Below, in pieces: positions 5,410 to 57,619 of a stretch of 64,000 bases of DNA. How positions within the stretch are numbered: position 1 is the stretch's first letter; every line of letters starts with the position of its first letter. Source of the DNA: Strobilurus pachycystidiatus (Eukaryota > Basidiomycota > Agaricomycetes > Agaricales > Physalacriaceae). The stretch spans positions 124,001 to 188,000 of the forward strand of contig JAHLMK010000001.1 in NCBI GenBank assembly GCA_019915135.1, read 5' to 3'. The position numbers and the translations under genes are program-made. A model generated the notes under the pieces. It saw only the letters and a program-made list of their open reading frames with translations, searched no databases and was not told where the DNA came from.

Positions 5410-5828
5410 TGTCAGCGTCGGGCCTATTCGTCTATAGCGAGGGCGCACGAGGCAACGACTGGAGAGCGGTGTAAAGGGTGGTGTATTGAATCCCGGGGGA
5501 AAGACAACGGTTCTCTGAAGAACTACTCTACTGACTACTGACTCTTTTATACAGTTCCCGACGCCCGACGCCCGATGGGCGCGGGTGCGCCCCTCTGACT
5601 CATTCCCGAGTCATCGCACGAGTCATCGCGCCATCCCGCCCGTGATTGGTCGGGAGCGCGCCCTATCCCGCCCGATCCCGCTTTCCCGTCGGCCGAGCTC
5701 CGCCACCATGTGCTACCGTCGGACGGCCGTCGGATAGATCCCGACGATGGGCGCGATACCGTTGCTCCCGCCCGCGCAGGCGTCGTCTTCGATCGGCTAG
5801 GCGTCGGTGGCGCAGTCAAGTCATGACA
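5410..5828 (-). repeat. 3' LTR of Gypsy-1
   Basis: 419 bp and apparently identical to 10975-11393. The pol frame runs into this LTR and stops at 5547. Confidence 0.95.
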
Positions 5829-8800: not shown

Positions 8801-9842
8801 CGAACACCCGTCGGAATTCCTCTAAATATTGCGGGGGAACGAGTTCTTCTAAGGGCGCCTCGCCCTTAGCTTTTGCTTGGTCCCCCGCTAACTGGGTCGA
8901 TTTAGTGGCGAAAGCGCGGATTCGTTCCGCGTCGAGCTTTCTTTGCCCGTACCGATTCTGCGGGACGTCCCACATCTTCACGACTAGAATTCGATCTCCC
9001 TCCTCGAGATCTTCTTCATCTTCTTCTCGCCATGCGCGGCGAGCCTGGCGTCGTTGACACTCTGGCGGACACCTCGTGAACGCCAGGGTTCCCTTGACCC
9101 AGTCGACCTCGGGATTATGCTTTTTCAGCCATTCGTATCCCAGGATAATGTCGACGTCCCCGGTGTTAGTCACTGCGAACGTGAAAACATCTTCGTGTTC
9201 GTTGTCGGTTACGACCCGCAGATCCACGATCTGCTCTATTGGCCCGTTATTGTTGGGGGTTCCGTCGACGTTGGACACCGCGATGGGGCGTGGCAGTCGT
9301 TGGGTGTCCATTCCTTCGTTTTCGGCGAAGTCTCGATTGACATAGGCTCCGGTAGCTCCGGAGTCGATGAGGGCGACCACAGTGAGGGCCTTGCCACTAT
9401 TCAGGAATTTGAGGGTGATGGGGATTTTCATACAGCGCCCCGGGCGTGTAGATCGAATCCAACGACGAGGTTGTCGGAATTCCTGGATAGCTGCTTGGGC
9501 GTGGCGGGAGTCCAGGCCCAAGATGTCCTGGACCGCCTCCTGGGTGACCTCGGACTCCCTATCAGTCCGAGCGTATTTCCGGAGTACTTTGAGAGCTTGG
9601 CGGGGGTTAACCTGCATTTCGTGCCAGATGAAAGGGAGGGTCCCGCGGACGTGCTTGATGGGTTTGATCCGCGAACTTCCCTTTTTGGCTATTTTGTTCT
9701 TTCTTTCACGCGAGGGTTTTGGTTCGTCGAAGTCCATGGGATCGGATTGTTCGTTACTACTGTCACTGGCTTCAACAAGTAGACTACTGAATCGATTGGT
9801 CCATGGACCCGAGGAAGGGGGACTGGAAGACTCGCTCTTCAC
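5547..9842 (-). CDS. pol: Gypsy-1 Pol polyprotein (protease, RT, RNase H, integrase, chromodomain)
   Basis: About 1431 aa. Domains in order: aspartic protease with ALIDSGATGAYV (about 155-165), reverse transcriptase with the catalytic YMDD (KVIVYMDDILVF), RNase H (IEVDASEFATGG through LTDHKNLEVF), the HHCC zinc-binding part of integrase (HDTAIAGHPG to CNGCLDCQ), the DDE catalytic core (SVDLIVELPE, VISDRGGQF, QTERINQELEQY), and a C-terminal chromodomain (WEVEKIVGHKKFRGRTQYLL). The chromodomain would direct integration to particular chromatin. The frame starts at a GTG overlapping the gag stop, one base back, so expression by -1 frameshifting is likely. The last 130 or so residues are low-complexity and read through the 3' LTR, which supplies the stop codon. 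Confidence 0.95.
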   Translation of the reverse strand: MKSESSSPPSSGPWTNRFSSLLVEASDSSNEQSDPMDFDEPKPSRERKNKIAKKGSSRIKPIKHVRGTLPFIWHEMQVNPRQALKVLRKYARTDRESEVTQEAVQDILGLDSRHAQAAIQEFRQPRRWIRSTRPGRCMKIPITLKFLNSGKALTVVALIDSGATGAYVNRDFAENEGMDTQRLPRPIAVSNVDGTPNNNGPIEQIVDLRVVTDNEHEDVFTFAVTNTGDVDIILGYEWLKKHNPEVDWVKGTLAFTRCPPECQRRQARRAWREEDEEDLEEGDRILVVKMWDVPQNRYGQRKLDAERIRAFATKSTQLAGDQAKAKGEAPLEELVPPQYLEEFRRVFEKTEFDRLPERRKWDHAIELKPDATEFKGKIYPLAPSEQVELDKFIEEHLQSGRIRVSKSPYASPFFFVKKKDGRLRPIQDYRQLNTMTVKNSYPLPLLSDVLHKLRNAKLFSKLDVRWGYNNVRIVEGDEHKAAFITNRGLFEPLVMFFGLTNSPATFQTMMNDLFHDLILRGKVIVYMDDILVFTEGIDEHRQVMKEVLRILQDNNLSVQGSKCNFEKSEVEYLGLIVGNGQFRMDPVKVEGVRAWPTPRTVKEVQSFLGFANFYRRFIEGFAQVAKPLHSLSKKDIPWRWGDAEEEAFADLKERITSEPILHFPTQTGRYRIEVDASEFATGGVLSQEQDGKTVPIAFMSKSLSPAERNYDIHDKEMLAIMRALADWRHYVLGAPEPTLILTDHKNLEVFMQAKKLNRRQARWSLDLAEYNFTLVHRPGAQNKKADLLSRRQGHERGADDNRDTVLLKKEYLSRIFATPISIDDYNHIRAMDEVTIATEGNDFMDRIIAAKDEWEEKVKKMVGKTVEDKGGYLTKEGLLYVPANRTLRQRIMRQHHDTAIAGHPGRFRTTELVLRNYWWPGLYADVARYCNGCLDCQRTKSSRQLKVGQLQPNEIPSAPWQHISVDLIVELPESLGYDSIMVVVDRFTKMARFMPTTTHITGEGAARLFQDHVWKDFGFPISVISDRGGQFVGQFTTALYQGLGVKQRASTAYHPQTDGQTERINQELEQYLRVFTNHQQNDWASWLSQAEFSYNDKASSSTKKSPFQLMYGINPLRGTEPRTATRNESADEFVTRLDRAREEARAALTAAAATMKRFYDEKRRPDPDYKVGDKVLLETTNLKIDRPSMKLADKRYGPFKVLKKIGKASYRIQLPTSFKIHNVFNTVYLRPYIEGFPHQTYTRPDPVIVDDEEQWEVEKIVGHKKFRGRTQYLLKWKGYPLEENTWTYEADIQAPALLRAYKKSEGIVADVLPAGSQSRSQRRAKICAMGTCALKRGYCHDLTAPPTPSRSKTTPARAGATVSRPSSGSIRRPSDGSTWWRSSADGKAGSGGIGRAPDQSRAGWRDDSCDDSGMSQRGAPAPIGRRASGTV

Positions 9843-10939
9843 TCCAGTCCCGCGCCAAAACCCTGCTCCTGCAGCGTCTGAGCGAGATCCTCTCGTTCTT
9901 CGTTGCTAAGACCTTCTACGAGTCCCTTGACGGATTCGCGTCTCTCCGTGCAATTCCTCGCGAAGTGCCCGGATTTCCCGCAGTTGTAGCATTTTAACGA
10001 GGCCGCGCCTCGCGTTCTGTCAATGCTCATGGGTTCGCCTTTTCCTCCGTAGGTGATTCCGGTGGCTGGGGGATTGTTGATTACTGTCGTAGTACTAGGA
10101 CGCGGGAAGTTTTTGGAAGCGAAGGGGGCAGGGTTCTTGTATCCCTGGGTGGGGGCCGTGCCTCGATTAGCGTCGAATCGAGTGGCGAACTTCTTGTACG
10201 CATCGTAGGTCTCGGGGATATTCTCCATTTCGGTGATGCGTTCAACCAGAGAGGAGTCCAGCTGGTGGCGTAGGAGGGAGATGAGGGCATCGTCGTTGAA
10301 ACCTGTGTCGGCTTTGTACTCTTCGAAGTCGATGAAGAAGGATTGGGCGTCCTGTCCTTTCTTCTGTTTCAATTTCTTGATCTCCTCCTGGGCGATCGTC
10401 TTCGAGTTGGTCCCTCCGAAGGCTCTTTTCAAGGCGTCCTTGAAGTCCGTATAAGTCAGGTATGGCTCCTCTCCTTTCTCGTAGAGGGCGGTCTGCGTGC
10501 TGGCCCATTTGATAACAGCGGGCCCCTCGGTCATGTACGATAGCGCGGCGAACACTCTGTTGCGCGCGGTCTCGTAGGCTCGAGGTTCGGAGGCGAAGAG
10601 GATGTGGAGTTGGGAGAAGAACGGCTCGATGCCGTCCGACTTCCCGCTAAACTTGGCCGGGGTCCCGAAGCGCGCCTTGGATGCGCGATGTTGCGCGGCT
10701 TGCGCCTGTGCTTGGGACGCGGCCAGCTGGACGCCGCTGAGCTCGCTGATACGCTGAAGAAGTTGAGCGTGGAGGTTCGCCACCTCGTGGCTCCTGTTGA
10801 TTTCGTCCTGCGCGATGGTAGTGATGCGCTGGTTCAGATTGTCGAGGGCCGTCCCTATGCCACTGAACATGCTATGCAGCTCTCTCTGCTCGTTGGTGGG
10901 CTCGGTGGCCGGGGCCATGGGGGCGTCTTCGGTGCTCAT
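9839..10939 (-). CDS. gag: Gypsy-1 Gag (capsid/nucleocapsid)
   Basis: 366 aa. A helical capsid-type region is followed by a CCHC zinc knuckle (CYNCGKSGHFARNC) near the C-terminus. Gag forms the particle that packages the element RNA. The start ATG lies 36 bp inside the 5' LTR edge at 10975. The stop TGA overlaps the start of the pol frame. The 366-aa length is matched exactly by the Gypsy-2 copy once its KDZ insert is removed. Confidence 0.93.
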   Translation of the reverse strand: MSTEDAPMAPATEPTNEQRELHSMFSGIGTALDNLNQRITTIAQDEINRSHEVANLHAQLLQRISELSGVQLAASQAQAQAAQHRASKARFGTPAKFSGKSDGIEPFFSQLHILFASEPRAYETARNRVFAALSYMTEGPAVIKWASTQTALYEKGEEPYLTYTDFKDALKRAFGGTNSKTIAQEEIKKLKQKKGQDAQSFFIDFEEYKADTGFNDDALISLLRHQLDSSLVERITEMENIPETYDAYKKFATRFDANRGTAPTQGYKNPAPFASKNFPRPSTTTVINNPPATGITYGGKGEPMSIDRTRGAASLKCYNCGKSGHFARNCTERRESVKGLVEGLSNEEREDLAQTLQEQGFGAGLE

Positions 10940-10974
10940 AGTCGTTGGGTCGTCGAAAGGGGAGAGAACCGTAT

Positions 10975-11393
10975 TGTCAGCGTCGGGCCTATTCGTCTAT
11001 AGCGAGGGCGCACGAGGCAACGACTGGAGAGCGGTGTAAAGGGTGGTGTATTGAATCCCGGGGGAAAGACAACGGTTCTCTGAAGAACTACTCTACTGAC
11101 TACTGACTCTTTTATACAGTTCCCGACGCCCGACGCCCGATGGGCGCGGGTGCGCCCCTCTGACTCATTCCCGAGTCATCGCACGAGTCATCGCGCCATC
11201 CCGCCCGTGATTGGTCGGGAGCGCGCCCTATCCCGCCCGATCCCGCTTTCCCGTCGGCCGAGCTCCGCCACCATGTGCTACCGTCGGACGGCCGTCGGAT
11301 AGATCCCGACGATGGGCGCGATACCGTTGCTCCCGCCCGCGCAGGCGTCGTCTTCGATCGGCTAGGCGTCGGTGGCGCAGTCAAGTCATGACA
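10975..11393 (-). repeat. 5' LTR of Gypsy-1
   Basis: 419 bp and apparently identical to the 3' LTR. It contains a TATAAAAG box on the minus strand at 11116-11109, suitably placed for the element transcript. Confidence 0.95.
11109..11116 (-). promoter_or_regulatory. Likely TATA box of the Gypsy-1 5' LTR
   Basis: TATAAAAG on the minus strand inside the 5' LTR, upstream of gag. The same box recurs in the Gypsy-2 5' LTR at 57761-57754. Confidence 0.5.
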
Positions 11394-41302: not shown

Positions 41303-41775
41303 TCCAGTCCCGCGCCAAAACCCTGCTCCTGCAGCGTCTGAGCGAGATCCTCTCGTTCTTCGTTGCTAAGACCTTCTACGAGTCCCTTGACGGATTTGCG
41401 TCTCTCCGTGCAATTCCTCGCGAAGTGCCCGGATTTCCCGCAGTTGTAGCATTTTAACGAGGCCGCGCCTCGCGTTCTGTCAATGCTCATGGGTTCGCCT
41501 TTTCCTCCGTAGGTGATTCCGGTGGCTGGGGGATTGTTGATTACTGTCGTAGTACTAGGACGCGGGAAGTTTTTGGAAACGAAGGGGGCAGGGTTCTTGT
41601 ATCCCTGGGTGGGGGCCGTGCCTCGATTAGCGTCGAATTGAGTGGCAAACTTCTTGTACGCATCGTAGGTCTCGGGGATATTCTCCATTTCGGTGATGCG
41701 TTCAACCAGAGAGGAGTCCAGCTGGTGGCGTAGGAGGGAGATGAGGGCATCGTCGTTGAAACCTGTGTCGGCTTT

Positions 41776-42106
41776 CACCTGATTGTCCCATCAAACCAAC
41801 CTAATTAGGTAGCATACTTCCATATGGGTACTGTACCTAACTAGGCTGAATCGACCGCATATGCCGGTCAAGCACTAGCAAGTCATTAAATCCCGGTGAA
41901 ATGCACTTGTCAAATATGAATCCTGAGCTCTCCGGGCGGGTACTGGGCGGTCCCGCTGGCCGAGCGTCCATGCGCTCATTCCCAATCCGGCCAAGTCGTC
42001 GCTCGCACTTTCCCGCGGCTTCGTCATCACTCGGACTGCGGTCCGTCATGCCACCACTACCCAATCGGGATGTCCGCTGTTGATCCCGCCCCTCTGCTCA
42101 CTGCAG
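41776..42106 (+). repeat. Left TIR of the KDZ transposon
   Basis: 331 bp, reverse complement of 56622-56952 with about five differences. Begins CACCTGATTGTCCCATCAAA. Confidence 0.95.
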
Positions 42107-42214
42107 GTCCTTCAAAGTCACTTAAAAGAGGGCGCATTTTCAATAAATAAATACATAGTATAATATGCTAGAGATAGACACTATATAATTGTTTAAATCA
42201 GCCAAAAATCAGTA

Positions 42215-44362
42215 CTACAAGTCGTCTTCAAGCTCATCGATCTCCTCATCGGAATCATCGCCGGCGCCAGCGGTCGGAGGTGCGAAATCGTCCCCGTCGT
42301 CGAGTCCGCCATTGGCGGCGGCGTGAGGGCCGTCGTCGTCGTCTTCTTCGTCGCTGCTCTCAATCAACTCCTTGCTCTTTGGAGGGAGAGTCTTCCTCAA
42401 GGCAACCGCCTTGGCCGCCCTTGACTTTGCCTGCCCGCCGGCAAGCTCTCTGCCATGGGCGTCTGGGGCTGTCGGTCCTGCCGCTGCTGTTGCCGGTGTC
42501 GAAGTTGCCGCCGCCGCCGTTGCTGTTGATCCTGCTGCCTTTTTCGCGGGGCCTGCGGACTTCTTCTTCGCCGCCTTTCCCTTCTCCTTCTGCGCCTTCT
42601 TGTCGGCCTTTTCCTTCTCCTTCTGCGCCTTCTTGTCCGCCTTTTCCTTCTCCTTTGCCGCCTTCTTGTCCGCCTTTTCCTTCTCCTTTGCCGCCTTCTT
42701 CGCAGCGGCGTTCATGGTCGTGGTCGTTGGCGCTGAAGTCTTTGCCCGCTTCTTGGGCCTGACCTCGTCCTCGTCCTCTCCGCTATCGTTGTCGTCGTCG
42801 TCATCCTCTCCGCTTTCCTTCTCGCCCTCGCCCTCGTCCTCGTCCTCGTCTTCTCTACTACCGGACTCGTTCTCCTTCTCACCGTCTTCCTGACGAGCCC
42901 GCTTCTTACCCTTGTCAGATCTTGTGGCCCTTCCCTTCTTCAACTCGCCCGCTTTGACACGCTCTGCAACTTCTGCATCGTGCTTCTCGCTGTCCGACTT
43001 AGACATCACCGCCCAACGACACGCCCCAGCGCGCCAGAGGTCCACAAGTCGGCGCAGCTCCTCCGGGGTCATATCAGCGCCTGGTCCGAACTTGATATCC
43101 TCCGGCCACCCGATGACTTTGACGTGGTACCTGCCTACAACGTCGACGTCGTAGCCCGTATATGACATCTTGACCTTGTCTCTGTTCGTAGCCCGTCCTG
43201 ATAGAGAGTCGATGAGGAAGGTGAGGGTGAAGCATGGGCATACGTCGACTTACGAAGTCCCAATGTGATTGTAGTACTGAGCTCTTCACGAAGCCTTTTG
43301 CGGGTATCTTTGAGGCCGATCGCCGCTGTTGGTATCATGAGAGCCATGGCATATACACATGATGGAGAACTTACTCGAGGATGCTAAGACAGAGTAATTC
43401 TTGAACCAATCCAATATCTCGAAGACCGATTTATTGAGGACGGCGGGGAAGAAGTCCAACGCTCCGGGTGTTTCGATGACAGTGGGAACCATGGAATCAT
43501 GCGCGTTAGAGCCCGCGAAGAAGGCAAAGCCCCACGTTCCGTGACGTGAGTTGAATCGATTGAGCTGGGGGATGAAGATTAGCCTACATTTAGCTACAGG
43601 CAAAAATGAACGCACCTCAGTCTGGAACGCGCCTATAGTGGCTACATAGTCCATATTGGCGGCCTTGTTGTTGGCGCGCGCTCCCGTCTTCTTGAGGGCT
43701 CGGTGGGCGAGAAGATCGTTGATGAGCTCCTGTTTGTCGTCAGTGCTGAGGTTGGCCCAGGTGCTCTCCTCGTCAGAGATCTTGGCGAGAATGTCTCGAA
43801 GACGAAGCCGCTCGCCCTTGGGAAGGTCTACAAATCGGACGATGATTACAATGCAAGCGAGGCGGTTACTGTTGCTAGAAGGCTCACCTTTGTTGAGCTC
43901 CTTGGAGCGCGCATGAGTAATCGCATTCGCCAAGTTTGGGGCGCGTTCCTTCTTGAAGACACTGGTCTGAGTACACCGCATCCGAATGACCTCGTAGGAG
44001 ATGTCGTGGGCCTTGGCGATGGCCTGCATCTTCTCCTCTGCCTCCAAGTGGAATGCGCTGATGGCGGCATCGAGGGCGGCGGATTTCTCCTGCCTGGTCT
44101 GACGGCGGAGAGCAGCGTCTTTGTCGGTCGATGCTTTGTACCGTTCCTCCCTCGGGACTAGAGGAATGACGCCTTGTGTGGGATGCCTATTGGCGTGAGT
44201 TGTATTCTGGGCGATGGCGGGCGAAAGGAAGTCGCCGTCACTCGCGTCAGCGCCGGCTCCCGTGCCCGAGATTTCCTGGGGAAGCCCTCCAGGCAATGCT
44301 CCAGTGGTTGGCGCGGGTGAGGACTCGACAAAGGACGAGGTGACGGTAGGTGTACTAGACAT
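42215..44362 (-). CDS. KDZ cargo 1: Lys-rich, probably nuclear protein with a conserved GWP motif
   Basis: Exons 44362-43888, 43827-43616, 43564-43375, 43307-43254 and 43197-42215 total 1914 nt, giving 637 aa. The N-terminal third is Ser/Pro-rich, then a charged helical segment (AALDAAISAFHLEAEEKMQA, RMRCTQTSVFKKERAPNLAN). Around 320-375 a compact region, YDVDVVGRYHVKVIGWPEDI, then LRRLVDLWRAGACRWAVM, resembles a block I recall from many unnamed mushroom proteins. The C-terminal half is highly charged: an acidic run, a repeat of KEKADKKA-type units (about 430-480), an Ala-rich part and an acidic end (DSDEEIDELEDDL). Basic runs suggest nuclear location and nucleic-acid contact. Function unknown. 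All exon joins keep frame, so it seems intact. It is divergent from cargo 2 with 340 bp between starts. Confidence 0.75.
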
Positions 44363-44702
44363 TATTGCTCAGACAAGTGCGAGGAGGCAAGGAGGAGCAA
44401 ATCAACGAACTCACCCTGCATTCAAATTTCAAGCGTGAAGTATTTGTCCGCAGAGGGTGCGACGCATCGCAGCAGCGAGCATCGTTGAATGTAGATGATG
44501 AACGAAGGAGGGAGAGTCAGGTAGCGAAGTGCATTCCAAAACGGGAAGTGTTGCGCCGCCCTCTCTCCCTCAAACTACCATGGACCGCTCCTCTCATCGC
44601 TGCTCTTCCGCCTTCCGTACGGCGTACGCCTATGCAGTTGCCGACGGCCACAGCGACCGCGTGTGTAATTGGCAATAGGAGCTAGGTGGCACCAAGGCAC
44701 CA
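44363..44702. promoter_or_regulatory. Likely divergent promoter region of KDZ cargo 1 and 2
   Basis: 340 bp between back-to-back start codons (44362 on minus, 44703 on plus). No clear TATA box; contains a pyrimidine-rich stretch near 44556-44575. Confidence 0.35.
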
Positions 44703-46117
44703 ATGGCTCTCAGGGTTGTCTTTCCAACCATCTCCCGCAGCGTCTCTCACCTCCTTGCAAGCAAACGTATGTACTTATGCACACGCCTTAGCAATGCCCA
44801 GTCTTATGCCTTTAACAGAAACTAAATGTCTGATTCTCATATCTTTCAAGGCAGGCCTCATGCTGGTACGCAAGTTACCTATTCTCCTGTTCATGTATTT
44901 CATAGCTCTCTCTCAGCAGAGACAACGACGGCTCAGCTCAAGAAGAGCCTCGCTGCGCGAAGAGCCTCCACCGCACCATCTCCGCGCAAGGATCATTCTA
45001 TCGGTGAGTCGATTCTCTGAGATCTCGTATGCCTGTCCCGCTAACTACGCTCTGCTCAGCTCTATCAACGGACGCACGCCTCAAACCAATCGAAGAAGCC
45101 CCGGTCCAGAAGGCGAACAAGCCAAGTGCGTAGTCTTTCTATTTCTTATTTTTCTTTTGTGAATGAGATTTTTAGGACTATCGTACTACGGCGATAGTGA
45201 TGTTTACGCCTCCGATCCCGACGAATTGACTGGAAGCTACGCCCGACCGCGGCGCCTGCTGCCTATGGCGAATTCGCGGTCCAGTCGAGCAGACCTCAAG
45301 CTCAAGAGCTTCGGTCCTCAAATCTCGGTGACCAGAACAGCCGCTGCGCGCCAGTCTCGCAGCCTCTCTCCCACCAAGAAGCCACCGTCCGCCGCCATTT
45401 CCCCATCGTACACGACTCCCATTGCTCCTCCGCCTCCTACCCCTCGTATACGCTCCTTGTCGCCCAAAAAGAGAAGAACGACCATCGTCGTTCACCTATC
45501 GGACAGCGAAGACGACGCTCCCTCTCTCGCATCGTCTACAACGATACCGGCATCTTCTCTCTCTCGGACAATCCTACCGCCCGCTCCTGCCGCGCATCCC
45601 CGCGTATCTGAAGGTGATGTTTCTATTCCGTCTTCCATGACGGACTTCAGCATCGGCGACGATGTGTCTTCGGTATCCTCGTTGACGGCGACTACCGTCT
45701 CCACCTCCATCGGCGACAATCTGGCAAGTTTTGAGGACATAAACCCAGGCGTGGAGGGGCACGGGCATGCTCCTCCCAAAGAGCATCATCAAACGCCGAC
45801 GGATGACCGGCGCGGCCGCATCGAGGAATGGCGTCAAGGGGAAGTACAACTTGGACGGCCCACGTTTGGTTCCATGGAGCGCTGGAATCCCAGCGCATCT
45901 GGGTCAGCAACGACGACGTGGGGCTCACCAGGTTGGCCAGACGCCGTGACCACCGACTGGGATGGAAATGAGCGCGTTTGGAGTCGCCGCAGCTGGGCGA
46001 GAGGTGGCGGCGGCGGAGGCGGAGGTGGCGGCGATGACGGAGATGACGACGGCGACGGCGACGGCGACGACGACGAACCTGCACGCCCTTCCTCCTCCAG
46101 CCTTGGCTGTCAGATTA

Positions 46118-46161
46118 ATATATGAAATAAGCCCAATGGGCTGAGTTTCTCAATACATTAT
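46118..46161 (+). repeat. Left TIR of the TA-site element
   Basis: About 44 bp with near-perfect match to the complement of 49922-49965. Confidence 0.8.
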
Positions 46162-47071
46162 ACAGTCCAAATAGGCTGGTTATCAAAATGGCAGGCGAGC
46201 TGGATGTGACTGGCTGTGACCACTGTATCGAGCAGGTAGGGGATGGGCTCATCACTGGCACCCGCTCTCTGCTCACTGTCAAATCCCGCCTCCTGGCTGT
46301 TGGGGGCGGGATTGATTATATTTTCTTATATAATAATCTCATTATCTGGGCGGGTCGGGTCCTCCGACTTGGATATCGTTTGCGGATTGTACAGGGAATT
46401 TTCCCACCATCCCAAATGGGTAGATCACTCATTTGGGCGGGTGGGGGACATTAATCGCGGGCGGGATGGGTTTCCGCGGGCTCAGAATGTGGCGCACTGC
46501 CATACGGGCCTTCATAGATATATTTGGGATTTCTTGATACCCTCAGCGGGGCAAACAAAGTGTGGCGGGGGCTGGATGGGACCCGCCTTGCTTGGATAAA
46601 TCTGAATATAATCTTGCTGCTCTCAGTTTCTGTTTAGGACACAGTAATATGATATTATTAGAGTCTACATTGCTGCTATATAGACATTTTGAAGGATAGA
46701 GGGCGGGAAGAGCTGGATGCGCACCCAGCACCTTGGATGTCGGTGGGGGCGCACGGCATTCGGAACCGCAACTTGGGTGACGTCATGTTCGAATTAGAGC
46801 CGAGGGGTCTGCACGCACGCCCGCTAATACTAGGATAATGGCGGAATGTGATAGGTTGTAAACATTGATACCCCCTCGGAGGACTCGAACCTCCCGAGGT
46901 TCCAATTTCAGGGGGTGTTGGGTGGGCGACGTCGCGTGCAAACCGACCCGGATCTAGCAAAGACTGTTGCGGCAGTGGCTGACTGTATGTGATTGGGGTG
47001 GGTGGTGGGAATCCTCCTCGCGTGTGGGATCATCTCACTATCGTCGGAGTCGCCATCGTCCGCGCCGTCGT

Positions 47072-47129
47072 CACCGTCGTCTTTGGGTCACCGTCGTCGT
47101 CACCGTCGTCTTTGGGTCACCGTCGTCGT
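47072..47129 (+). repeat. Two tandem 29-bp units
   Basis: Copies at 47072-47100 and 47101-47129, each built of CACCGTCGTCTTTGGGTCAC followed by CGTCGTCGT. They lie within a CGTCGT-rich stretch of the TA-site element. Confidence 0.75.
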
Positions 47130-49921
47130 CGCGGCCCTCTGTAATGTCCGGCGACGAGTAATTGGTTGGATGGTGCGGGGGTGCCGAGGTCGCCGTCGCC
47201 GTCGTCCAGGCTTGTAAAGAGTGTGGGGAGGAAGATACTAGATACCCTTACCTGCTGACCCCGCCCTGTCCTGCGCGCCCCGGAGATTGCGTCTGCGCCG
47301 TCCTAACCCGTCCTGCCCTTAGCCATCATCGCCGTCGTCGTTGGTAGGCGTGATCGCGAGGGCTTAGACGAACGGCAGCCTCGTCGAAGGAGGGCTTACG
47401 CGGGCGAGACGGTTCCAGCGTCATCCACACCATTTGCGAGGCGTGGAAAAAGAGCCGGCTTCCAAATCGGCCAGGAGTCGGAGGAGAGAGGTAGAGAGCG
47501 GCCCCAGACATGATTCCTGGGGCTGGATGCGGTGTTCTCGCCATCCTGCTGTGGTGGCAGGAGGCAAGGAGCGAGCACGATCGTTGCTCGGACGATCGGA
47601 CCGGTGAATCCGATCGTCGAGCTCGTCGACGTCTACACGTATTGTACGCGTTCAACTTGCTCTGACGGCCCAAATTTTGCCCAAGGTGGTCTGTAATTAT
47701 ACAATCTGTTATCCCTGTGGGACTTGAAGTACCTCAAATGATGCAAGGGACTCTTGTTGAGTGTTTGAGTGGTCACCGTGCAGTCTGTCCTTGGCAATGA
47801 GCGCGACGGCGGTACTAATAAGAATTCAAGAATATGAGAACATGAGGCGTCTTAGAATGGTGCCCACTAGGCATCTACAGATTTCCATGTCAGTTCGAGT
47901 TGTGTGGAAGATGTTAAATTCTGTCTTACCATCGAACAATGCATTGAACATATGTATTGCGAACATGTATACGATGTCGTGCTTACCAGGTACAGATCTC
48001 AGACAATCTTCACCAGCGATTTTGTTTACGATCCTATGTAATCTCTGCTATATTTTATTCGCCCCGCCTTCGTCGTTCGGTCGCTACGACGTCTTGAACG
48101 ACGTCCGGAGATTCGGTCCGAACGATCCGAGCAGCGATCGAACGCTGTTCGGAATCGTTCTCTCTCATTCTCGCCACCACCATGTCACGGTGACCTCGCT
48201 GCCTGCCCACCAATCACCGGCAAACTCGACGCGCTGCCTTTGAGCGCTGTCTTTCGCCGTTCCCAGCTCGCAGAGCCCCGGATTCGACCCGGACCTGGAC
48301 GACCGCGTAAGCCCCCGACAACGGGCAGCAGCTCGCGGAAAACAGGCGCCGTCGACCATTGGAGTCGACGCCAAGTGGCGCCAGCCCCGTTGCAACCCCG
48401 GAGCGGCTCTGCAAGAACGGCGGCCGTTGGATGCCGCGCTGCTCGTCTGCTGGCGAGCAGGGCGTGCAGGTGCGTATTTTTTTCGTCCTTTTCAATTCTT
48501 CCGAGGCCCTGTCGATTGGCCAGTTGGGGCCCAGCTGCGCGAGCGCCGTCGCAGCGCCCGTGTGGGCTACCATTCTTGGGCGGCGGCGGGATACGGTGCG
48601 CTGTGGGCGTAACGAGTCGACGCCAAGCGTTTCCAGCCCGGGCGCAAGCTCGGAATTGGGCTCTGCTCTGCACGGACGGTCACCGATGAATGTGGCGCTG
48701 CTTTGCTCGCGAGCGGCGCCACCCAGTCATTCCTGGTCTCTTTCATTCATTTGCCGCAGCTTCTGCTACCGGAGATTGCATTACTGATTCTTTCTTAGGT
48801 CACACGTCGTGGACGATCCCTGAACGGGGCCTTGGCTCGCCGGCACCTTCAACGACACCTGCCCCCCTCCCCCCCTCCCTTCCAACCCTCCTAGCCTACG
48901 CAGGCACTCTCGCATAGCCCAGTACGCGATGGTCCGCCCTTGGACCAGCGGAAGAGCCGGGGCGACCGTGTAGCGGGGCTGGTGGGAGTGTTGCCAGGCG
49001 ACAGGGCGACGGCAACGACGATGAGGACAACGACGGTGCCACCACTGTATCAATGGCGAATCCGATTTGCAGACCGCCTAATCAGCGACGACGTTCGCGG
49101 ATTACGCTTGCGCGAATCCCTTCCAATTCTCCTCCCCTGTGCCGTCTCATTCCCCCCCTCATCTCCCTTATGCTGTTTCTCCCCTCCATTCTCTCTCCAA
49201 CCCCACTCCCTTACCCCTCGGCTCCTCCCCCTCCCCTTGTCCTCTTCCCTCTGTCTTCGTTGACGGAGGATTTCATGCCGGGTTGACGCCCCGCGCACAT
49301 TTGTGTGCGGGTGCTCGTCCTGCATGATCCAGAATTCTGTGCCCTAGGCACAAACACTAAGCGCTGATGGCTCTAGTCCGGTCATCTCGGGGATAGGTAC
49401 ATCCAAACCCCATCCACGCATCCAGCCATTGCTGCGCCACAAGTACTTTGATTTTTGTATATACTATCATGATGTACTGCAGTATTGTATATACAAGAAT
49501 TTGAGTCCAACGGAGCCCGGAATCCCGAGCAACGAATGCCAAATGGCGGGTGATCCAGTTTCCTAATTGGGAACGGTATCCGAAGTGAACCCGCCCCATC
49601 CAGCTCACGCCACACTCTAATTGCCCCGCTCGCCTGCTCAAATAATATAAGACCCTTCTGGGTATGTGCGCCTGCAAATGCGCTCCCATCCCGCTCAAAA
49701 TTGAGGGCGCTAGAGCCCGCTCAACTATTTGATGGGTGATTCTGAGCCTCCTTCCCGAAAGGGAATTCTCACGCACAGCGCCCACCAGACAGCGAGCGGG
49801 GCACATCTATTCCCGCCACATCACAGTGAGCACAGCTGGAGCGCTCACCATCCACCCCCCGCCCCCTACAGAGAGGTGACATTGGGTGACACTTTTTTTG
49901 GCTGGAGCCCTTTTGGGCTCA

Positions 49922-49965
49922 ATAATGTATTGAGAAACTCAGCCCATTGGGCTGATTTCATACAT
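49922..49965 (-). repeat. Right TIR of the TA-site element
   Basis: Inverted partner of 46118-46161. Confidence 0.8.
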
Positions 49966-50346
49966 TATTGGGGCGCCCACAGGTGCCTCCTCCGACTACG
50001 ATTCCAGATTTCCGTACCCCAATTTCGATCAGGATCACGAGGAGGTTGAAGAGGTATACTGGGTCGTTCTGCAGGGCACGGAGCCGGGAGTTTACTACGG
50101 GCGAGAGGCCGCGGTGCGCGCGAATCCGACTCTGCGTCAGACGCCGTATGGATCGCGTACCCAAGTCGAGGCAGATCGACTTTTCGCCCTTGCCACCGTC
50201 CGCCATTTTGTTCATCGCTTTTCGTAGATGTAATCGTACCTGTACCACCCGTTGTTTAGTGTATCAAATTCATTCTATGCATCATCATGTTATTGTGCAA
50301 GTAGCGTAGTATTGAAGGGAAACATTGTTCAATATATGTAAGGTAG

Positions 50347-51071
50347 TCAGAGGCATGAGGGTGACTGTTGATATAACAGCTGCCTCTTGGATCGAGCTGC
50401 AGCCAGTCCATCGTGTAGTTCGGCGCTCTTCTCTTGCATATCTCGAATATAGGATATCAGTCTTTCCAGACGTCTGTGAATATCTTCGGCGTCCTGCGAA
50501 TATTGTGTAGCTTGCCCCGCCGTCTCCAAGATGTCATCCCAGATATCCCGCACCTTCCGACGCTCTTGGTCCCATCGCTCGGCAAGAACGTCGAGCGCAA
50601 TGGCCTGAGGGCAGGTGGATGGATCATCCCACTCGTTGCTCCCTAGGTTGTGATCTTTGTACGTCTCAAACAGACCCTCGCAATAATTGGGCAAAGAATT
50701 GTACGTCGCAACGCGCATCTCCGCGTCGATATGCCTTGCAGGACGCATGAGTCGAATAAGAGACGAATGGTCAATATCACTGTAGAACAGTCATTAATGT
50801 GGGGAGGTGGTGCTGAACTGCAACGCACTTTATGCTTGGCTCGATAGCCACGCGACGTGCTCGGCCGTCCCGAGCAGCTCGAGCCTCATAGCTAGCCTTC
50901 ATCTTCTCCAAATGCTTGTCTCGATGTCTGAAGTGAAAGAGAGGAAGAATCTGCTTAGTGTTTAAGTTGTAGCAGAAGCAATGTTACGCACTTCCAATGC
51001 CAACGCATTTTGCGATCTTTCTCTGCCTGTCGCTTTTCCTCGGGCGTACGATATTTAATTTGACGAGGCAT
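50347..51071 (-). CDS. KDZ cargo 3: small basic plus coiled-coil protein
   Basis: Exons 51071-50992, 50927-50829 and 50779-50347 total 612 nt, giving 203 aa. The first 60 residues are strongly basic (MPRQIKYRTPEEKRQAEKDR, then RWHWKHRDKHLEKMKASYEA), like a DNA- or RNA-binding helix. The middle has TYNSLPNYCEGLFETYKDHN, and the C-terminal half is a likely coiled coil (AEDIHRRLERLISYIRDMQE). The basic-helix-plus-coiled-coil layout recalls bZIP-like or transposase-helper proteins, but I cannot assign a family. It sits between cargo 2 and the dioxygenase, on the same strand as the latter. Confidence 0.65.
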
Positions 51072-51373
51072 ATCGAAGGGAGGAAGACAATCTAATGCCT
51101 AGGCAAGGTGGCGGAAGAGGTGTGAGGTCGTGATTTTCAGAGGGATGTAGGCAGTTGATGGGGCGAAGCCAAGCACAGGACATGATCACAATTCGCATAT
51201 GCATATACCTCTCAGAATGAATTCATTAGACTTTTTCATTAGACTTTTTCATTACACCATATTTCGCTACCTCAGACACTCCAAAACCTAGTGCAGATTA
51301 TGGCTTTACATGCTTAAAGTGATTTCGAGTAAAGAAAGTGGCGGAAATAAAAATAAAAAGACTATAATTTCAT
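51072..51373. other. Spacer between KDZ cargo 3 and the dioxygenase gene
   Basis: About 300 bp holding the promoter side of cargo 3 and the 3' flank of the dioxygenase. A short tandem repeat (ATTAGACTTTTTC, two copies at about 51225-51251) is the only visible structure. Confidence 0.4.
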
Positions 51374-53016
51374 TTATGGTTCTCGGTCCAACAAGTCCTC
51401 TAATTTGGAATACAGTGATAGCCCCATCTCCCATCGTGTACTCTTCAGAGCATCCAGGCGACGGAACTCTGCACGGTTCTTGCTCTTGAGCTGTTTATCG
51501 TTCTTGAAGCCGTTATCAACATAACGGAACAACGCGCCAGCAGCAAACTGTGTGAAGGAAAGCCGCTCGTCGCCTTCAGCGGGCGGAACATTCGAGTGCT
51601 CGACGGTGGCGGAGGGAATGAGGATAGTGGAGGCGTGCGGAAACTCGATGACCATTCGGAGATTCCATAGGATGATATGCCCTCCGAGTTTGGGGCGAAA
51701 TCCCTTTTTCGCAAGTGCGCAGATGGCGCACCAGCCAAAAGAAATGTTCGCGCTGTCGCGATGCCTAAACGACCACGACCTTCGAGAGAGATTGAAGGCG
51801 GCGCACGGAAAGACTGACTTTGAGAAGTTGAGTCCAAGGCTTGGGTCGTGATGGTGCAAAGCGTCCATGTGTTCCTTGTAGTAATTGAATAGGTTGGGGC
51901 TCCATCGCTGAAAGGCGGAGCTGGCGAAAGTGGCGAGGCGATTGATAGAGTGATTCCCAAGAAGGAGCTCGTTGACTGCGGCGTGCGTACCGGCGCTGAG
52001 GCGCAAAGGTCCGGGCTGCCCCTTGCCAGCAGTAACGCCGACGTTATGGGCGATAAATAGCCCCCGCCGGTGCTTCTTCGTCTCTTTCTCGAGCCATTGT
52101 TCCTGCTCGCCAACGGAGGCCATCGTTTCAAAGGCCTTGTCGGCGTCCTCGACGTAGGAAGTATCGCGCGGACGTCCAGCAAGAACTGCGAAGATCACGC
52201 CGTTTTCATCGCAGATGGGAATGGGGGTTCTGTTGATGAGATGTTAGGACATGGAGATAATCTACGGAGGGCGCCGTGCTTACATGCCGTCCCAAGCTAT
52301 ATAAGTGAACCCCATAGCATGGAGCTCCTCCAGGGTATACTCTCGGTCGTAGTCGATGATTTCGTCCCTCTGTGGCTTGGCAAAGTAGGCGCCGTGGGCC
52401 GCCGGAAACTCGTGTGTGTCCACGTCGCTGACTACCGGCGGAGCAGCAGCAGTTTCGAGAAGGGAGGCGGTGCTTCCGGGGGCGGGAACGTGACCGACCT
52501 CCTTGATTGCCGCCGAACGACTCTTGGCGCGTTTAGCGTGCCGGTAATTGAACTTCCCGTCTGAGGGCGCATGGCGCTTTGAGCTCGAGGATTCTTCCCG
52601 CGGCGGGCGCAAAGTAGACGACGAGGGCGCGGAGTCTGGGGGTGCAGCGGTCGCAGAAGGCAGTGGCCGTGCGTTGCCAGAAGAATGAGGGGGCGGTGAG
52701 GGAGTGTGGTGGCTTGGAGATGGAGGGGTGTGATGAGTGGCGGCGCCGCGCAGAGGGATGTTGTTCGGATCCGGGGGCGGTGAGGGGGGAGCGTCCTGAT
52801 GATCTGGGGCCATGAGGTAGGCAATGGTAATGTCCTCGGCAATCTGCAATGATTCCTTCAACTTGAATTTACGCGTCGTGCGCAGCGGCTCGATGCGCTC
52901 CCCAGCAGGATGCCCCCCGCCCGCAAACTCCTTGCCACTGCGAAGCTACCAATATAAAGAGTCAGAAACATAAGCGGACGAGCTCAGTCACTCACTTGAC
53001 GCGTAAACCAGACCAT
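51374..53016 (-). CDS. KDZ cargo 4: TET/JBP-type 2-oxoglutarate/Fe(II) dioxygenase
   Basis: Exons 53016-52996, 52945-52284 and 52229-51374 total 1539 nt, giving 512 aa. The first 190 residues are disordered (Pro/Ser/His-rich, with a basic patch near KRHAPSDGKFNYRHAKRAKS). The catalytic double-stranded beta-helix follows: iron ligands HRD (about H384 and D386, in FRHRDSANISFGWCAI), GGHIILWNLRMVIEFPHAST, the distal His (about H439, in SATVEHSNVP) and a likely 2-oxoglutarate-binding Arg (about R450, in DERLSFTQFAAGALFRYVDNGF). This signature is that of the fungal TET/JBP family, members of which oxidise 5-methylcytosine in DNA. The role here, demethylating or marking the element or its target, is inferred. 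The gene is divergent from the transposase. All key residues are present and it looks intact. Confidence 0.85.
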
Positions 53017-53270
53017 GAGTGGCGCGCCCTGTGAAGGGAGTCAGCGATTTTGTCAATATGGTAGACGCGCAAGACGCTTCTTGCACGACGCTCAAGATCA
53101 GAGAAGCGGATCTGATATGGCCCCAGGGATGATTCCAGTACCAGACGGCCGCCATCCTCTCTTCAACGCCGGCAGAGAGCGCGTCTTGCTATATGAAATT
53201 GCTTACCTTGGGGGTCAGGAGCAAGTTGGTTGAACGTGACTGTAACAAGTCACGTACCTGTTATTGCAGC
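53017..53270. promoter_or_regulatory. Bidirectional promoter region of the dioxygenase and the KDZ transposase
   Basis: 254 bp between the start codons of the two divergent genes. No clear TATA box. An intron-like CAG just before the transposase ATG leaves open a short 5' exon within this interval. Confidence 0.45.
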
Positions 53271-56200
53271 ATGGTTGGCGTTAAGGCGGTCAAGACTCGC
53301 TTCCAACCAAAAAAAAAGATCAAGGCCGCGGTCATCAGCTCTTCCTCGGGTCAAGGACAACCTTCCATTCGACGATCTCTCACCAAAGCTGGAGCCCGCC
53401 GTCACACCGACGAGACGATCCAAGACCTTCATGCTCGCGTTCATACGCTGACGCGAGCTCAGCGGCTTGAACTGCACGCCATTTCCGCCGCACCTGCGCC
53501 TCTTGCTCCGCTGGAGTCGGAGGATTTTCCAGGCGCCGATGGCTTTGCGGACGACGACGACGATGTCGAGATGCTAGATGCCGTGCTGGGCGGAAGGGCG
53601 AGGATGCAGGGGATGTCGCACGAGGGAGGGGAGTTCCAAGAAGTGTTAGCTGAGCTTGTGGACGAGCAGCGAAAGGAAGCAGAGTGCGTTGAATTCGCTA
53701 GCGTTATTCACATTACTGATTTCAGTCATAGGGCTCAAGCGAAAAAGACCAGGGGAAGGGACAGGAGGACACGACGCGACCGTACAGAACGGCGCACACA
53801 GATTCTCCGCGCTCAGCTCCCCGACTTTGTCGAGGCCTATCTCAACTGGTCATCTTCGAGAGGTGCGGATGCGCTGGGCAACACTGCGCCATTTCCCGCC
53901 ACGCCCTCTTCGCCTGAGTCAGCCTGGCCTCAGCGACATACCGTTGGCGTAATCGACCTCTTTTGGCGTCGACAGGTGCACATAGAGTTGGCGGAATCCG
54001 ACCAGACAACGGCTTCAGCCCTCATCCGCCAGGGCCTCATGCCCATCGCCGCCCTTTACCATACCTACGCGATCAGCATCCGCACTCTGGAGCTCTTCCG
54101 CGTAACACGACTCCGCTGCCCTCAGCTTTCGATAGAGGCGTTTGTACGGAGCCTCAACGATTTGCATCTGGTCAGTGCGCCGCCCCACAAAAAGCTTTCC
54201 GAGTCCTGATGTTAGACACGCAGGTTCCTTCGCGTACCACTCTGGCAGAACAGTTTTCGATTGCGTACGATCTCTACGAGGAGATCCTGCTCGCTGTGGA
54301 CAAACGAGTCGCACGCGCTCTTCAACGCGACGGGATCAATTATCGCATCAAGCACGCCTGCCCGTGCTGCATGTACAAGCTGGAAGGCGAGCCCGAACTT
54401 CTTTATCAGATGCTGTTCTGCATGGATGGCAACGATTCTCTCAAGCGCGTCTTGCGCAGGGTTCACAAATCGGACGTGGACGACCCCACCCCCGCAGAAA
54501 GCAGCGAGCGCAAAGATACGCGCGGCGATGGGATGGACTATATGCTCTCTCGCGACAAGGTGGACAAATGGACCAAGGAGCTGATTGAGTCAACGGCAGG
54601 ACCGCCTCAGGTATGCACGGTATCAAAGATGCAGAGCCTGTGCTGACCGAATTCTAGGACGATGACGACCCGAATTGGTGCGAGGACAGATGGGAGAATA
54701 TGAAGAACGAGATGGCGGCTCGGATGTGGGGAATCTTCGATGAGACAGGGATCTTTTTGGCTTTGTGCCGCCACGGCTTTGTCCTCATCGCGGCGGACAT
54801 GATTCGAAGCGGCGAATTGTCAGTCAAGCCCACATTTACTCCCGTATATACTAACTCCTTCCCAGGGCAAAGTATCCACTTGCCATTGTCGAGCATCTCC
54901 TGGAGACACTGGATGAGGGGCGACTCGGCGGCGGCTACGACATAGGGTGTAAATTCGGGACGACTCTCCATCGCAGCCCTCTCGGCCCTCTAGCCAAAAA
55001 GTTACGATACACCTCATTGGTCGGCCTATTCCACGGGCACGCGCACAATCGCCTTTGCCAGACGCGCAACCTAACGACGTACTGTGACGGCGTGGGATTG
55101 GAGGATCTTGAGGGCTGTGAACGCTTCTTTGCGAGGACGAATGCCATCGCCGGGGTAACGCGTTATGCCAGCAAAGTCCATCGTCGGCGACTCATCGCCC
55201 AAGTGTTCCGGCGGAAGGACGTCGATACCTACGAGCAACTTAGTAAGCGCACTCGCTATGGATGTGAAGAGTTCTACTAACAAAGCCCAGGTAAATTTCT
55301 TGTAGACAACTATACGCAGGCGTTGGAGCTCCTGGCGGGGGAGAGTACCTTAAAAGGAACCATGAAGGCAAAGGGCGTCGCGAGCGCCGACGTCTTCAGG
55401 CTCTGGCTTGAGGAGGAGCGCGCACATCTCCTCCAGCTCAAACGTGAGCCCGCCGAGGAGACTCTGCAGATGGAGTACCTCCAGAAGCTTGAGGTCATGG
55501 CGCAGCTCCAAGCCCAGCTTCAACGAGCCCAGGATGCGTTCCGAAACTTGAACGCCAGCAACATCCACCGACGGGACGATACGCGCGCCGTCGAGACTGC
55601 GCAGCGCCATGCCGGAGAGAAGCTGGATCGAGTGATCAACGACGTTCAGCTACTAGAGGAACGGCTGGGTATTGAGATCCGTTGGAAGCCGCAGGACAAA
55701 GAATGGGTAGAGGTATCTGCCATGCTCAAGACACGGAAATACCGTCGCGCCCTCGATGTATTGGAAGGCCTGGTCATTGCCCGCCTGTTTGAGCTGACAA
55801 AAATGAACCAATCCCAGACTGGTTGTCCTTCATTTGATTATTCATGACTCACGCTGATCTATTCACAGGATACAAGCTTCGCAAGCACATTGCCAACGCC
55901 TTGAAGACGCGTTCCCATGCCATCAGTACAGCACTCGACAAGTACAACGCCGCCGCCGCCGCATTCGCTCCTCGTAAGCCAGAGCTGAAGTGGGCTCAGG
56001 TTGTCGAGTACGCCTTTCTAGCCGACTTCGATCTGTTGAGGGAATCGCGGACCGACATTCGCGACAAGCCGTGGGCCCAGCCGTGGGGCCGCCACATTAT
56101 GGATCAACACTTCAAGATCGAGCGCGCACGGGAGGAGATACAACGGCTCAATGTCGAGATCCGCCGTCTCGTCACGTTCATCCGCGACGAGGACGCAGAC

Positions 56201-56554
56201 TTGGAGAAGAGGCGGGGAGAATGGCAGGAGAAGGACCCCCGGATCGCCTTCCATATCGACGTATACCGGCGCTCCAAGGCTAGGTTCAACGGCAAGCACA
56301 TATCGCGCTTTGCGGACCTCGCAAGGATGCCTGGCTTTACTGGAGACGTCACCCCCGGCGCGCACATCCCGACGGTCGATGAGCAGACGGCGGTCGATGC
56401 GGAGATACAGGAAGATGAAGCCGCCGTCATCGTCGATGGCACTCCCGAAGACGACGACGACGACGCCGACGATGCCGCCGAGGTCGCCAACCTTGACACT
56501 GAGGCACAGTTAGCACATCAATTCGAACTCTTACAGGTCGTTAGTGACATGTAA
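53271..56554 (+). CDS. KDZ transposase (Kyakuja-Dileera-Zisupton family)
   Basis: Exons 53271-53683, 53726-54170, 54224-54610, 54658-54818, 54866-55242, 55291-55821 and 55869-56554 total exactly 3000 nt, giving 999 aa. It should cut and join the TIR ends. The N-terminus is basic (FQPKKKIKAAVISSSS), with an acidic patch after it. The cysteine cluster HACPCCMYKLEGEPEL lies at about 331-346. Likely catalytic acids of the RNase H fold: D354 (FCMDGNDSLKR), D494 (GGGYDIGCKFG) and E551 or E554 (GLEDLEGCERFFARTN). Also typical are GLFHGHAHNRLCQ and RYASKVHRRRLIAQ. The C-terminal third has long charged helices and an acidic end (PEDDDDDADDAAE). An in-frame upstream Met exists at 53193. No stop or frameshift was seen, so it may be active. 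Confidence 0.93.
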
Positions 56555-56621
56555 AATAGTCTATTATAATGTTGTTTACTATGTCTGTATTTTGTAGCAT
56601 ATTTCAATTGGTATTTTTCAT

Positions 56622-56952
56622 CTGCAATGAGCAGAGGGGCGGGATCAACAGCGGACATCCCGATTGGGTAGTAGTGGCATGGCGGACCGCAGTCCAAGTG
56701 ATGACGAAGCCGCGGGAAAGTGCGAGCGACGACTTGGCCGGATTGGGAATGAGCGCATGGACGCTCGGCCAGCGGGACCGCCCAGTACCCGCCCGGAGAG
56801 CTCAGGATTCATATTTAACAAGTGCATTTCACCGGGATTTAATGACTTGCTAGTGCTTGACCGGCATATGCGGTCGATTCAGCCTAGTTAGGTACAGTAC
56901 CCATATGGAAGTATGCTACCTAATTAGGTTGGTTTGATGGGACAATCAGGTG
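56622..56952 (-). repeat. Right TIR of the KDZ transposon
   Basis: 331-bp inverted partner of 41776-42106. Starts 67 bp after the transposase stop codon. Confidence 0.95.
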
Positions 56953-57619
56953 TCGGCTTTGTACTCTTCGAAGTCGATGAAGAAGGACTGGGCGTCCTGT
57001 CCTTTCTTCTGTTTCAATTTCTTGATCTCCTCCTGGGCGATCGTCTTCGAGTTGGTCCCTCCGAAGGCTCTTTTCAAGGCGTCCTTGAAGTCCGTATAAG
57101 TCAGGTATGGCTCCTCTCCTTTCTCGTAGAGGGCGGTCTGCGTGCTGGCCCATTTGATAACAGCGGGCCCCTCGGTCATGTACGATAGCGCGGCGAACAC
57201 TCTGTTGCGCGCGGTCTCGTAGGCTCGAGGTTCGGAGGCGAAGAGGATGTGGAGTTGGGAGAAGAACGGCTCGATGCCGTCCGACTTCCCGCTAAACTTG
57301 GCCGGGGTCCCGAAGCGCGCCTTGGATGCGCGATGTTGCGCGGCTTGCGCCTGTGCTTGGGACGCGGCCAGCTGGACGCCGCTGAGCTCGCTGATACGCT
57401 GAAGAAGTTGAGCGTGGAGGTTCGCCACCTCGTGGCTCCTGTTGATTTCGTCCTGCGCGATGGTAGTGATGCGCTGGTTCAGATTGTCGAGGGCCGTCCC
57501 TATGCCACTGAACATGCTATGCAGCTCTCTCTGCTCGTTGGTGGGCTCGGTGGCCGGGGCCATGGGGGCGTCTTCGGTGCTCATAGTCGTTGGGTCGTCG
57601 AAAGGGGAGAGAACCGTAT

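Follow-up and report, generated by a model that had tools for sequence, protein, structure and literature searches.

A KDZ transposon of Strobilurus pachycystidiatus with a TET/JBP-fold dioxygenase gene between its terminal inverted repeats

Can a transposon carry its own enzyme for removing DNA methylation, and is such an enzyme a regular part of the element or a gene caught by chance? This question is raised by an interval of 15.2 kb within a 64,000-nucleotide stretch of contig JAHLMK010000001.1 of the basidiomycete Strobilurus pachycystidiatus (hereafter the window), which the sequence-only reading had described as a complete KDZ transposon with its own TET/JBP-type dioxygenase inside one pair of terminal inverted repeats (TIRs). 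We followed up this description in the source genome (51.8 Mb, 61 contigs); the closest protein relatives in our searches came from mushrooms, for example Hymenopellis, Mucidula and Mycena. The reading that we favour, with a probability of roughly 60%, is that of a cut-and-paste KDZ transposon moving as a five-gene unit, in which the TET/JBP-type dioxygenase is the standing cargo of the clade and would erase 5-methylcytosine (5mC) against silencing.

Ends, sister copies and genes of the element

The two TIRs form a gap-free alignment with 326 of 331 positions identical (E 1e-170), and the same 8 bp, TCGGCTTT, stand directly outside each of them. Both flanks, taken with one TCGGCTTT removed, match the uninterrupted Ty3 copy at 10166-10457 over 292 columns without a gap (98.97% identity), from which it follows that the element entered a Ty3 gag sequence and duplicated 8 bp there. 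The near-perfect repeats of about 331 bp and the target duplication relative to an uninterrupted sister gag, both claimed from the letters, were thus borne out. Only one of the five differences between the left and right TIR sits at CpG. The TIRs of all three copies described below (window 41776-41876 and the same part of both sister TIRs) contain two palindromes, CCTAATTAGG at position 25 and a relative of it at 61-62, a candidate binding site for the transposase.

A genome search with the TIR, which would miss copies whose TIRs have strongly diverged, gave six matches, two for each of three elements, the two sisters measuring 11.3 and 11.0 kb. In the copy C13 the TIRs are 327/327 identical and flanked by an exact 8-bp duplication, CCTCTCCA, whereas in the copy C2 the TIRs are nearly identical, one end is short of its outermost bases (about 17 bp) and no duplication was seen; exact 8-bp duplications are therefore present in two of the three copies (window and C13). 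At least the C13 element has, judging by its sequence, moved recently. Aligned blocks of the three copies keep their order and are about 65-73% alike in DNA, with short TIR or simple blocks reaching 87%, so that the copies represent separate lineages. Looking for copies with the same TIRs had been proposed together with the sequence-only reading, consistent lack of the dioxygenase being the contrary outcome; all three elements carry the dioxygenase, and its frame and that of the transposase are open in each. Over the last exon, the sister dioxygenases are 88% and 79% identical to that of the window. For the window-C2 pair, the only one not saturated at synonymous sites, the ratio of nonsynonymous to synonymous substitution rates (dN/dS) was 0.127 for the dioxygenase (bootstrap 0.086-0.168) and 0.080 for the transposase (bootstrap 0.054-0.105), values that indicate purifying selection on both genes.

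The exon models used here were derived by comparing the three TIR-bounded copies. The spliced transposase (gene E) has the expected 999 amino acids (aa), covers positions 1-217 of the 217 of the KDZ domain profile (PF18758, E 1.5e-75) and contains the candidate catalytic acids D354, D494 and E551/E554 where they had been placed, the same motifs being present in both sister proteins. Likewise, the 512-aa dioxygenase (gene D) has its HxD, distal His and Arg, with H384, D386 and H439 forming the iron triad (HxD...H) and R450 serving 2-oxoglutarate; these four residues are kept in 94, 95, 94 and 89, respectively, of 100 aligned rows. A structural model of the part encoded by the last exon (52229-51374) matched TET enzymes, and the predicted fold is nearest to TET/JBP among solved 2-oxoglutarate oxygenases, with 10-16% sequence identity in the fold alignments to solved TET-family structures. 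The TET/JBP assignment, originally made from motifs alone, is thereby backed by a predicted TET fold in which the Fe(II)/2-oxoglutarate site is intact.

No Pfam family, PF12851 (Tet_JBP) included, matched the window dioxygenase. In the dioxygenase alignment A1, which took in 43 of 99 homologs, 12 of the 44 members match PF12851 weakly (best E 1.3e-4). The genome gave 13 weak matches to the same model and none above the cut-off, seven of them on loci of the dioxygenase family, which amounts to 66 merged loci in this genome when fragments and broken copies are included; PF20515 matched three other places. This suggests that a count based on the Pfam Tet_JBP model would miss most of the 66-locus family in this genome.

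The window copy is not the one clean unit that had been supposed. Its 46116-49967 segment, missing from both sister elements, is a separate, later insertion that cuts gene B, and its family is multicopy: counting the window's own, the genome has seven left-end matches of 74-100%, and a further copy of about 3.83 kb spans C18:139007-142841. Because this insertion is foreign to the KDZ element, the element accounts for about 11.3 kb of the 15.2-kb interval and the insertion for the rest. What stands of the original description is that both enzymes lie within one TIR pair; to these are added three further genes, A, B and C (Table 1). Gene B is open in both sisters, with stop-to-stop frames of 434 and 373 aa, gene A matched the five elements of this clade and one further place in the genome, and gene C had no significant match to a Pfam family. 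The start codons of the dioxygenase and transposase genes, which lie head to head, are 256 and 271 bp apart in the sister elements.

Table 1. Features of the KDZ element and its insertion site, in window positions
Feature	Position	Strand	Remarks
Left target site duplication	41768..41775		TCGGCTTT
Left TIR	41776..42106	+	331 bp, starts CACCTG; palindrome CCTAATTAGG at TIR position 25, CCTAACTAGG at 61
Gene A	42215..44362	-	Spliced; tail lysine-rich and acidic; introns only partly modelled
Gene B, 5' piece	45163..46115	+	Kept in both sisters; severed by nested insertion
Nested insertion, outside KDZ element proper	46116..49967		3.85 kb; 60-bp TIRs (90%), TA at both edges
Gene B, 3' piece	49985..50227	+	Encodes candidate RNase H1-type hybrid-binding domain
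Gene C, accessory gene	50347..51071	-	With introns; own-genome matches near KDZ transposases
Gene D, TET/JBP-fold dioxygenase	51374..53016	-	512 aa; exons 53016-52996, 52945-52284, 52229-51374
D-E interval	53017..53270		254 bp, start codon to start codon, head to head; candidate shared promoter
Gene E, KDZ transposase	53271..56554	+	999 aa; seven exons
Gene E exons	53271-53683, 53726-54170, 54224-54610, 54658-54818, 54866-55242, 55291-55821, 55869-56554	+	
Right TIR	56622..56952	-	326/331 identical to left; all five differences are transitions
Right target site duplication	56953..56960		TCGGCTTT

Dioxygenase and transposase genes across the genome

Linkage was counted against a partial list of KDZ loci (249 first-look candidates, of which 150 were scored, giving 174 matches, of which 150 were listed and merged into 120 loci), so that the linkage counts are lower bounds and the absence of a nearby KDZ is a soft statement. 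At least 23 of the 66 dioxygenase loci are no farther than 10 kb from a listed KDZ locus, where 4.8% would be expected (P 2e-14); conversely, 26 of the 120 KDZ loci have a dioxygenase within that distance. Retention is specific to a transposase clade: a dioxygenase stands beside all seven relatives with at least about 44% identity in their main stretches, against one of ten weaker relatives with one within 10 kb (Fisher P 4e-4). The figure of seven treats the fragment C2:1247063, which lies 20.7 kb from the nearest dioxygenase and whose residues start where those of C2:1219480 stop, as a displaced continuation of that interrupted element; counted apart, it makes 7/8. The dioxygenase at C1:19544 adjoins a transposase N-terminus and yet falls outside the seven, the query having been the C-terminal part of the transposase. 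Over the seven loci the identity ranks of transposase and dioxygenase agree (rho 0.96, with the ranked identities hand-picked from the main stretches of the matches).

Genes A, B and D are shared by two older relatives, C1:19544 and C2:1216068, each of which has its transposase in the head-to-head layout. An older relative at C2:1210694-1247445 was noticed to be in pieces: about 26 kb separate one run of its transposase residues from their continuation, and a further piece has the opposite orientation. A tree was built from 25 own-genome loci and 20 of 99 homologs, less one sequence dropped by a length filter (44 in all); its deep nodes are weakly supported, and the five clade members grouped in it with a Hymenopellis protein with support 1.0. 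Outside this genome, a dioxygenase and a KDZ gene have consecutive locus tags in Tricholoma furcatifolium, Arthromyces matolae and a Termitomyces (H0H92_000527/528, H0H93_007996/007997 and C0992_000143/000144, the contigs of each pair being equally long).

Gene C was matched at 21 places, at least 20 of which have a listed KDZ locus no more than 10 kb away, whether or not a dioxygenase is there too; at 16 places it lies upstream of the transposase on the same strand. Exact spacings between gene C and the transposase recur (4720 bp in four copies, 4099 bp in three), which identifies multicopy families. Among the 20 KDZ loci linked to gene C, six have a dioxygenase of the 66-locus family within 10 kb and 14 do not, and gene C thus looks like a general KDZ partner, a candidate accessory gene.

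A separate dioxygenase family was also noticed, at six loci without a listed KDZ nearby (L016, L017, L018, L019, L021 and L022), two of which are 99.95% identical over 3,876 bp. An open reading frame without assigned identity at 332-1069 of L018 may belong to another type of transposon.

Methylation and the possible role of the dioxygenase

Matches to the DNA methylase family were found at seven places in the genome, several of which may be exons of one gene. Of the differences between the two Ty3 copies of the window, 2 are transversions and 30 are transitions; CpG accounts for 18 of the latter, against an expectation of 32% (P 0.002), an enrichment that, on sequence grounds, is a trace of CpG methylation; a 5mC substrate for the dioxygenase is therefore plausible in this genome. 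The two copies (36870-58038 and 5409-11393) are more than 99.4% alike, differing almost solely by transitions, and the two long terminal repeats of the interrupted copy differ at four sites, all of them CpG transitions.

We postulate that dioxygenase and transposase would be switched on jointly from the short interval between them, and that host methyltransferases would place 5mC at CpG sites on the element. The dioxygenase would then oxidise that 5mC, either in cis or genome-wide, which could delay silencing and keep the promoter and the TIRs usable long enough for transposition.

Several observations weigh against this proposal. For none of the three elements with a dioxygenase did the TIR search turn up a second copy that is nearly identical. 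The ratio of observed to expected CpG did not differ between 10 KDZ loci with a nearby dioxygenase, sorted by eye, and 20 without (P 0.37); the element itself has no CpG loss (1.07-1.11 in the three copies), and neither do most other measured loci, so that a protective effect is not demonstrated. In a comparison of six pairs with three other species, co-divergence of the two genes was not significant (rho 0.6; 68/720 permutations). Among the listed KDZ loci, 94 of 120 have no dioxygenase of the 66-locus family within 10 kb, and the families with repeated gene C spacings of 4720 and 4099 bp are among the dioxygenase-free loci, showing that KDZ elements spread without one. As to joint expression, only four of the 23 dioxygenase-KDZ pairs are head to head (2.08-2.37 kb between matches), while in 12 the dioxygenase lies upstream on the same strand (10 of them at 1.5-2.3 kb), in five downstream, and two pairs are convergent; a shared promoter is therefore no general rule.

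Part of this evidence would suit a dioxygenase that is selfish cargo acting in trans, non-specifically and genome-wide, which helps its own element no more than others. Such an action is conceivable where one genome contains 66 dioxygenase loci and 43 of these are away from any listed KDZ; oxidised cytosines have been reported at transposable elements of Laccaria and Coprinopsis (PMC8889193), and PMC12730594 speculates that AG-type enzymes of Agaricomycotina act in a non-targeted manner. We nevertheless regard it as rather unlikely, because retention that follows the transposase clade, the head-to-head layout of the three copies and the selection on the gene all fit a benefit to the element itself better. 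The opposite extreme would be a self-protection cassette, in which the TET-fold dioxygenase would represent an unlisted sub-type selective for 5mC and be expressed together with the head-to-head transposase, while gene B would supply an RNA/DNA hybrid-binding protein that guides it to transcripts nascent on the element itself and thereby directs demethylation in cis. This seems very improbable to us; gene B being split in the window copy, that copy would need the gene B protein from a sister.

The enzyme might also not erase 5mC at all, either because it writes a stable modified base or because its substrate is N6-methyladenine (6mA), RNA or something else. The low identity to solved TET-family structures leaves room for this, CMD1 being a TET-fold enzyme that makes a glyceryl base (PMC12730594) and CcTet acting on 6mA as well (PMC11040006). 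The pocket argues otherwise and makes the alternative quite unlikely: the residue at H+5, Asn389, is Asn in 95 of 100 rows, as in hTet2, whose Asn1387 is in contact with 5mC at N4 and clashes with 6mA (PMC11040006), and Cys395, at the position equivalent to CcTet 337, is Cys in 95 of 100 rows, so that by spacing-equivalent positions CcTet's 6mA-permissive pair, Gly331/Asp337, has no counterpart here. CcTet was not detected when PDB sequences were searched with a profile up to E 1. That the gene was trapped inside the TIR pair by chance and is now in decay could be imagined where dioxygenase genes are as common as they are in this genome, but it is scarcely tenable and already contradicted by open frames, by dN/dS far below 1 and by a place and orientation that are the same in the three TIR-bounded copies and in two older relatives, where the gene likewise accompanies genes A and B and a transposase in head-to-head layout. 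We therefore retain the five-gene transposon with an eraser as standing cargo as the preferred reading.

Comparison with known systems

KDZ-linked expansions of TET/JBP genes in basidiomycetes were reportedly described by Iyer et al. in 2014; the linkage is the same as here, and the report is said not to have presented a complete element together with its ends, target duplication and empty site. Complete structures of such elements were not known at that time, according to Kojima 2025 (PMC12730594), which describes TET+ DNA transposons in eleven lineages, Kyakuja and Zisupton included, and already proposes their escape from silencing. The kind of element is therefore known, and TET+ Zisupton and Kyakuja elements of Agaricomycetes likewise combine a KDZ transposase and a TET/JBP dioxygenase in one transposon (PMC12730594). 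Kyakuja shares the CA..TG ends of the window element; however, it makes 7-bp duplications and has no TIRs, and the 8-bp duplication and the 331-bp TIRs do not fit membership in it. Zisupton makes 8-bp duplications (PMC12730594), and judged by this feature and its long TIRs the element is probably Zisupton-like. In the parts of PMC12730594 that were covered, no counterparts of genes A and B were met in TET+ Zisupton and Kyakuja.

As for the enzyme, AG-type dioxygenases of Kyakuja keep Asp337 and Gly/Ser331 of CcTet (PMC12730594), whereas the window enzyme has Cys395 and Asn389, each in a family-wide majority as given above, which does not fit the AG type. A further type named there, PU, is that of rust-fungus enzymes. 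Agaricus bisporus, also of the Agaricales, has PE-type TET+ elements with Zisupton among the carriers and enzymes recognised by structure; the PE type is defined by HxE (PMC12730594), while the window enzyme has HxD and is thus placed outside it, although a sister relation is possible, the two having been compared by description only. CcTet of Coprinopsis cinerea (7vpn, 7w5p, 8jkk) is 13% identical to the window enzyme and alone of the two has the Gly331/Asp337 pair; human TET2 and Naegleria NgTET1 are 14-16% identical, TET2 has Thr1393 where the window enzyme has Cys, and the window enzyme differs from both in being carried on a transposon. Searches of open-licence papers gave no report of this dioxygenase sub-type, of the Asn/Cys pocket that marks it or of a partner gene for hybrid binding.

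Finished, datable copies, with ends, duplication, empty site and identical TIRs, of a transposon that may counter epigenetic silencing make the use of own erasers by transposons a directly testable question, and if the predicted 5mC-selective pocket holds true, the domain would be a compact eraser of about 285 residues. Taken together, the element is known in kind, and its dioxygenase appears to belong to a sub-type that Pfam's Tet_JBP misses and that the descriptions of the AG and PE types set apart from both.

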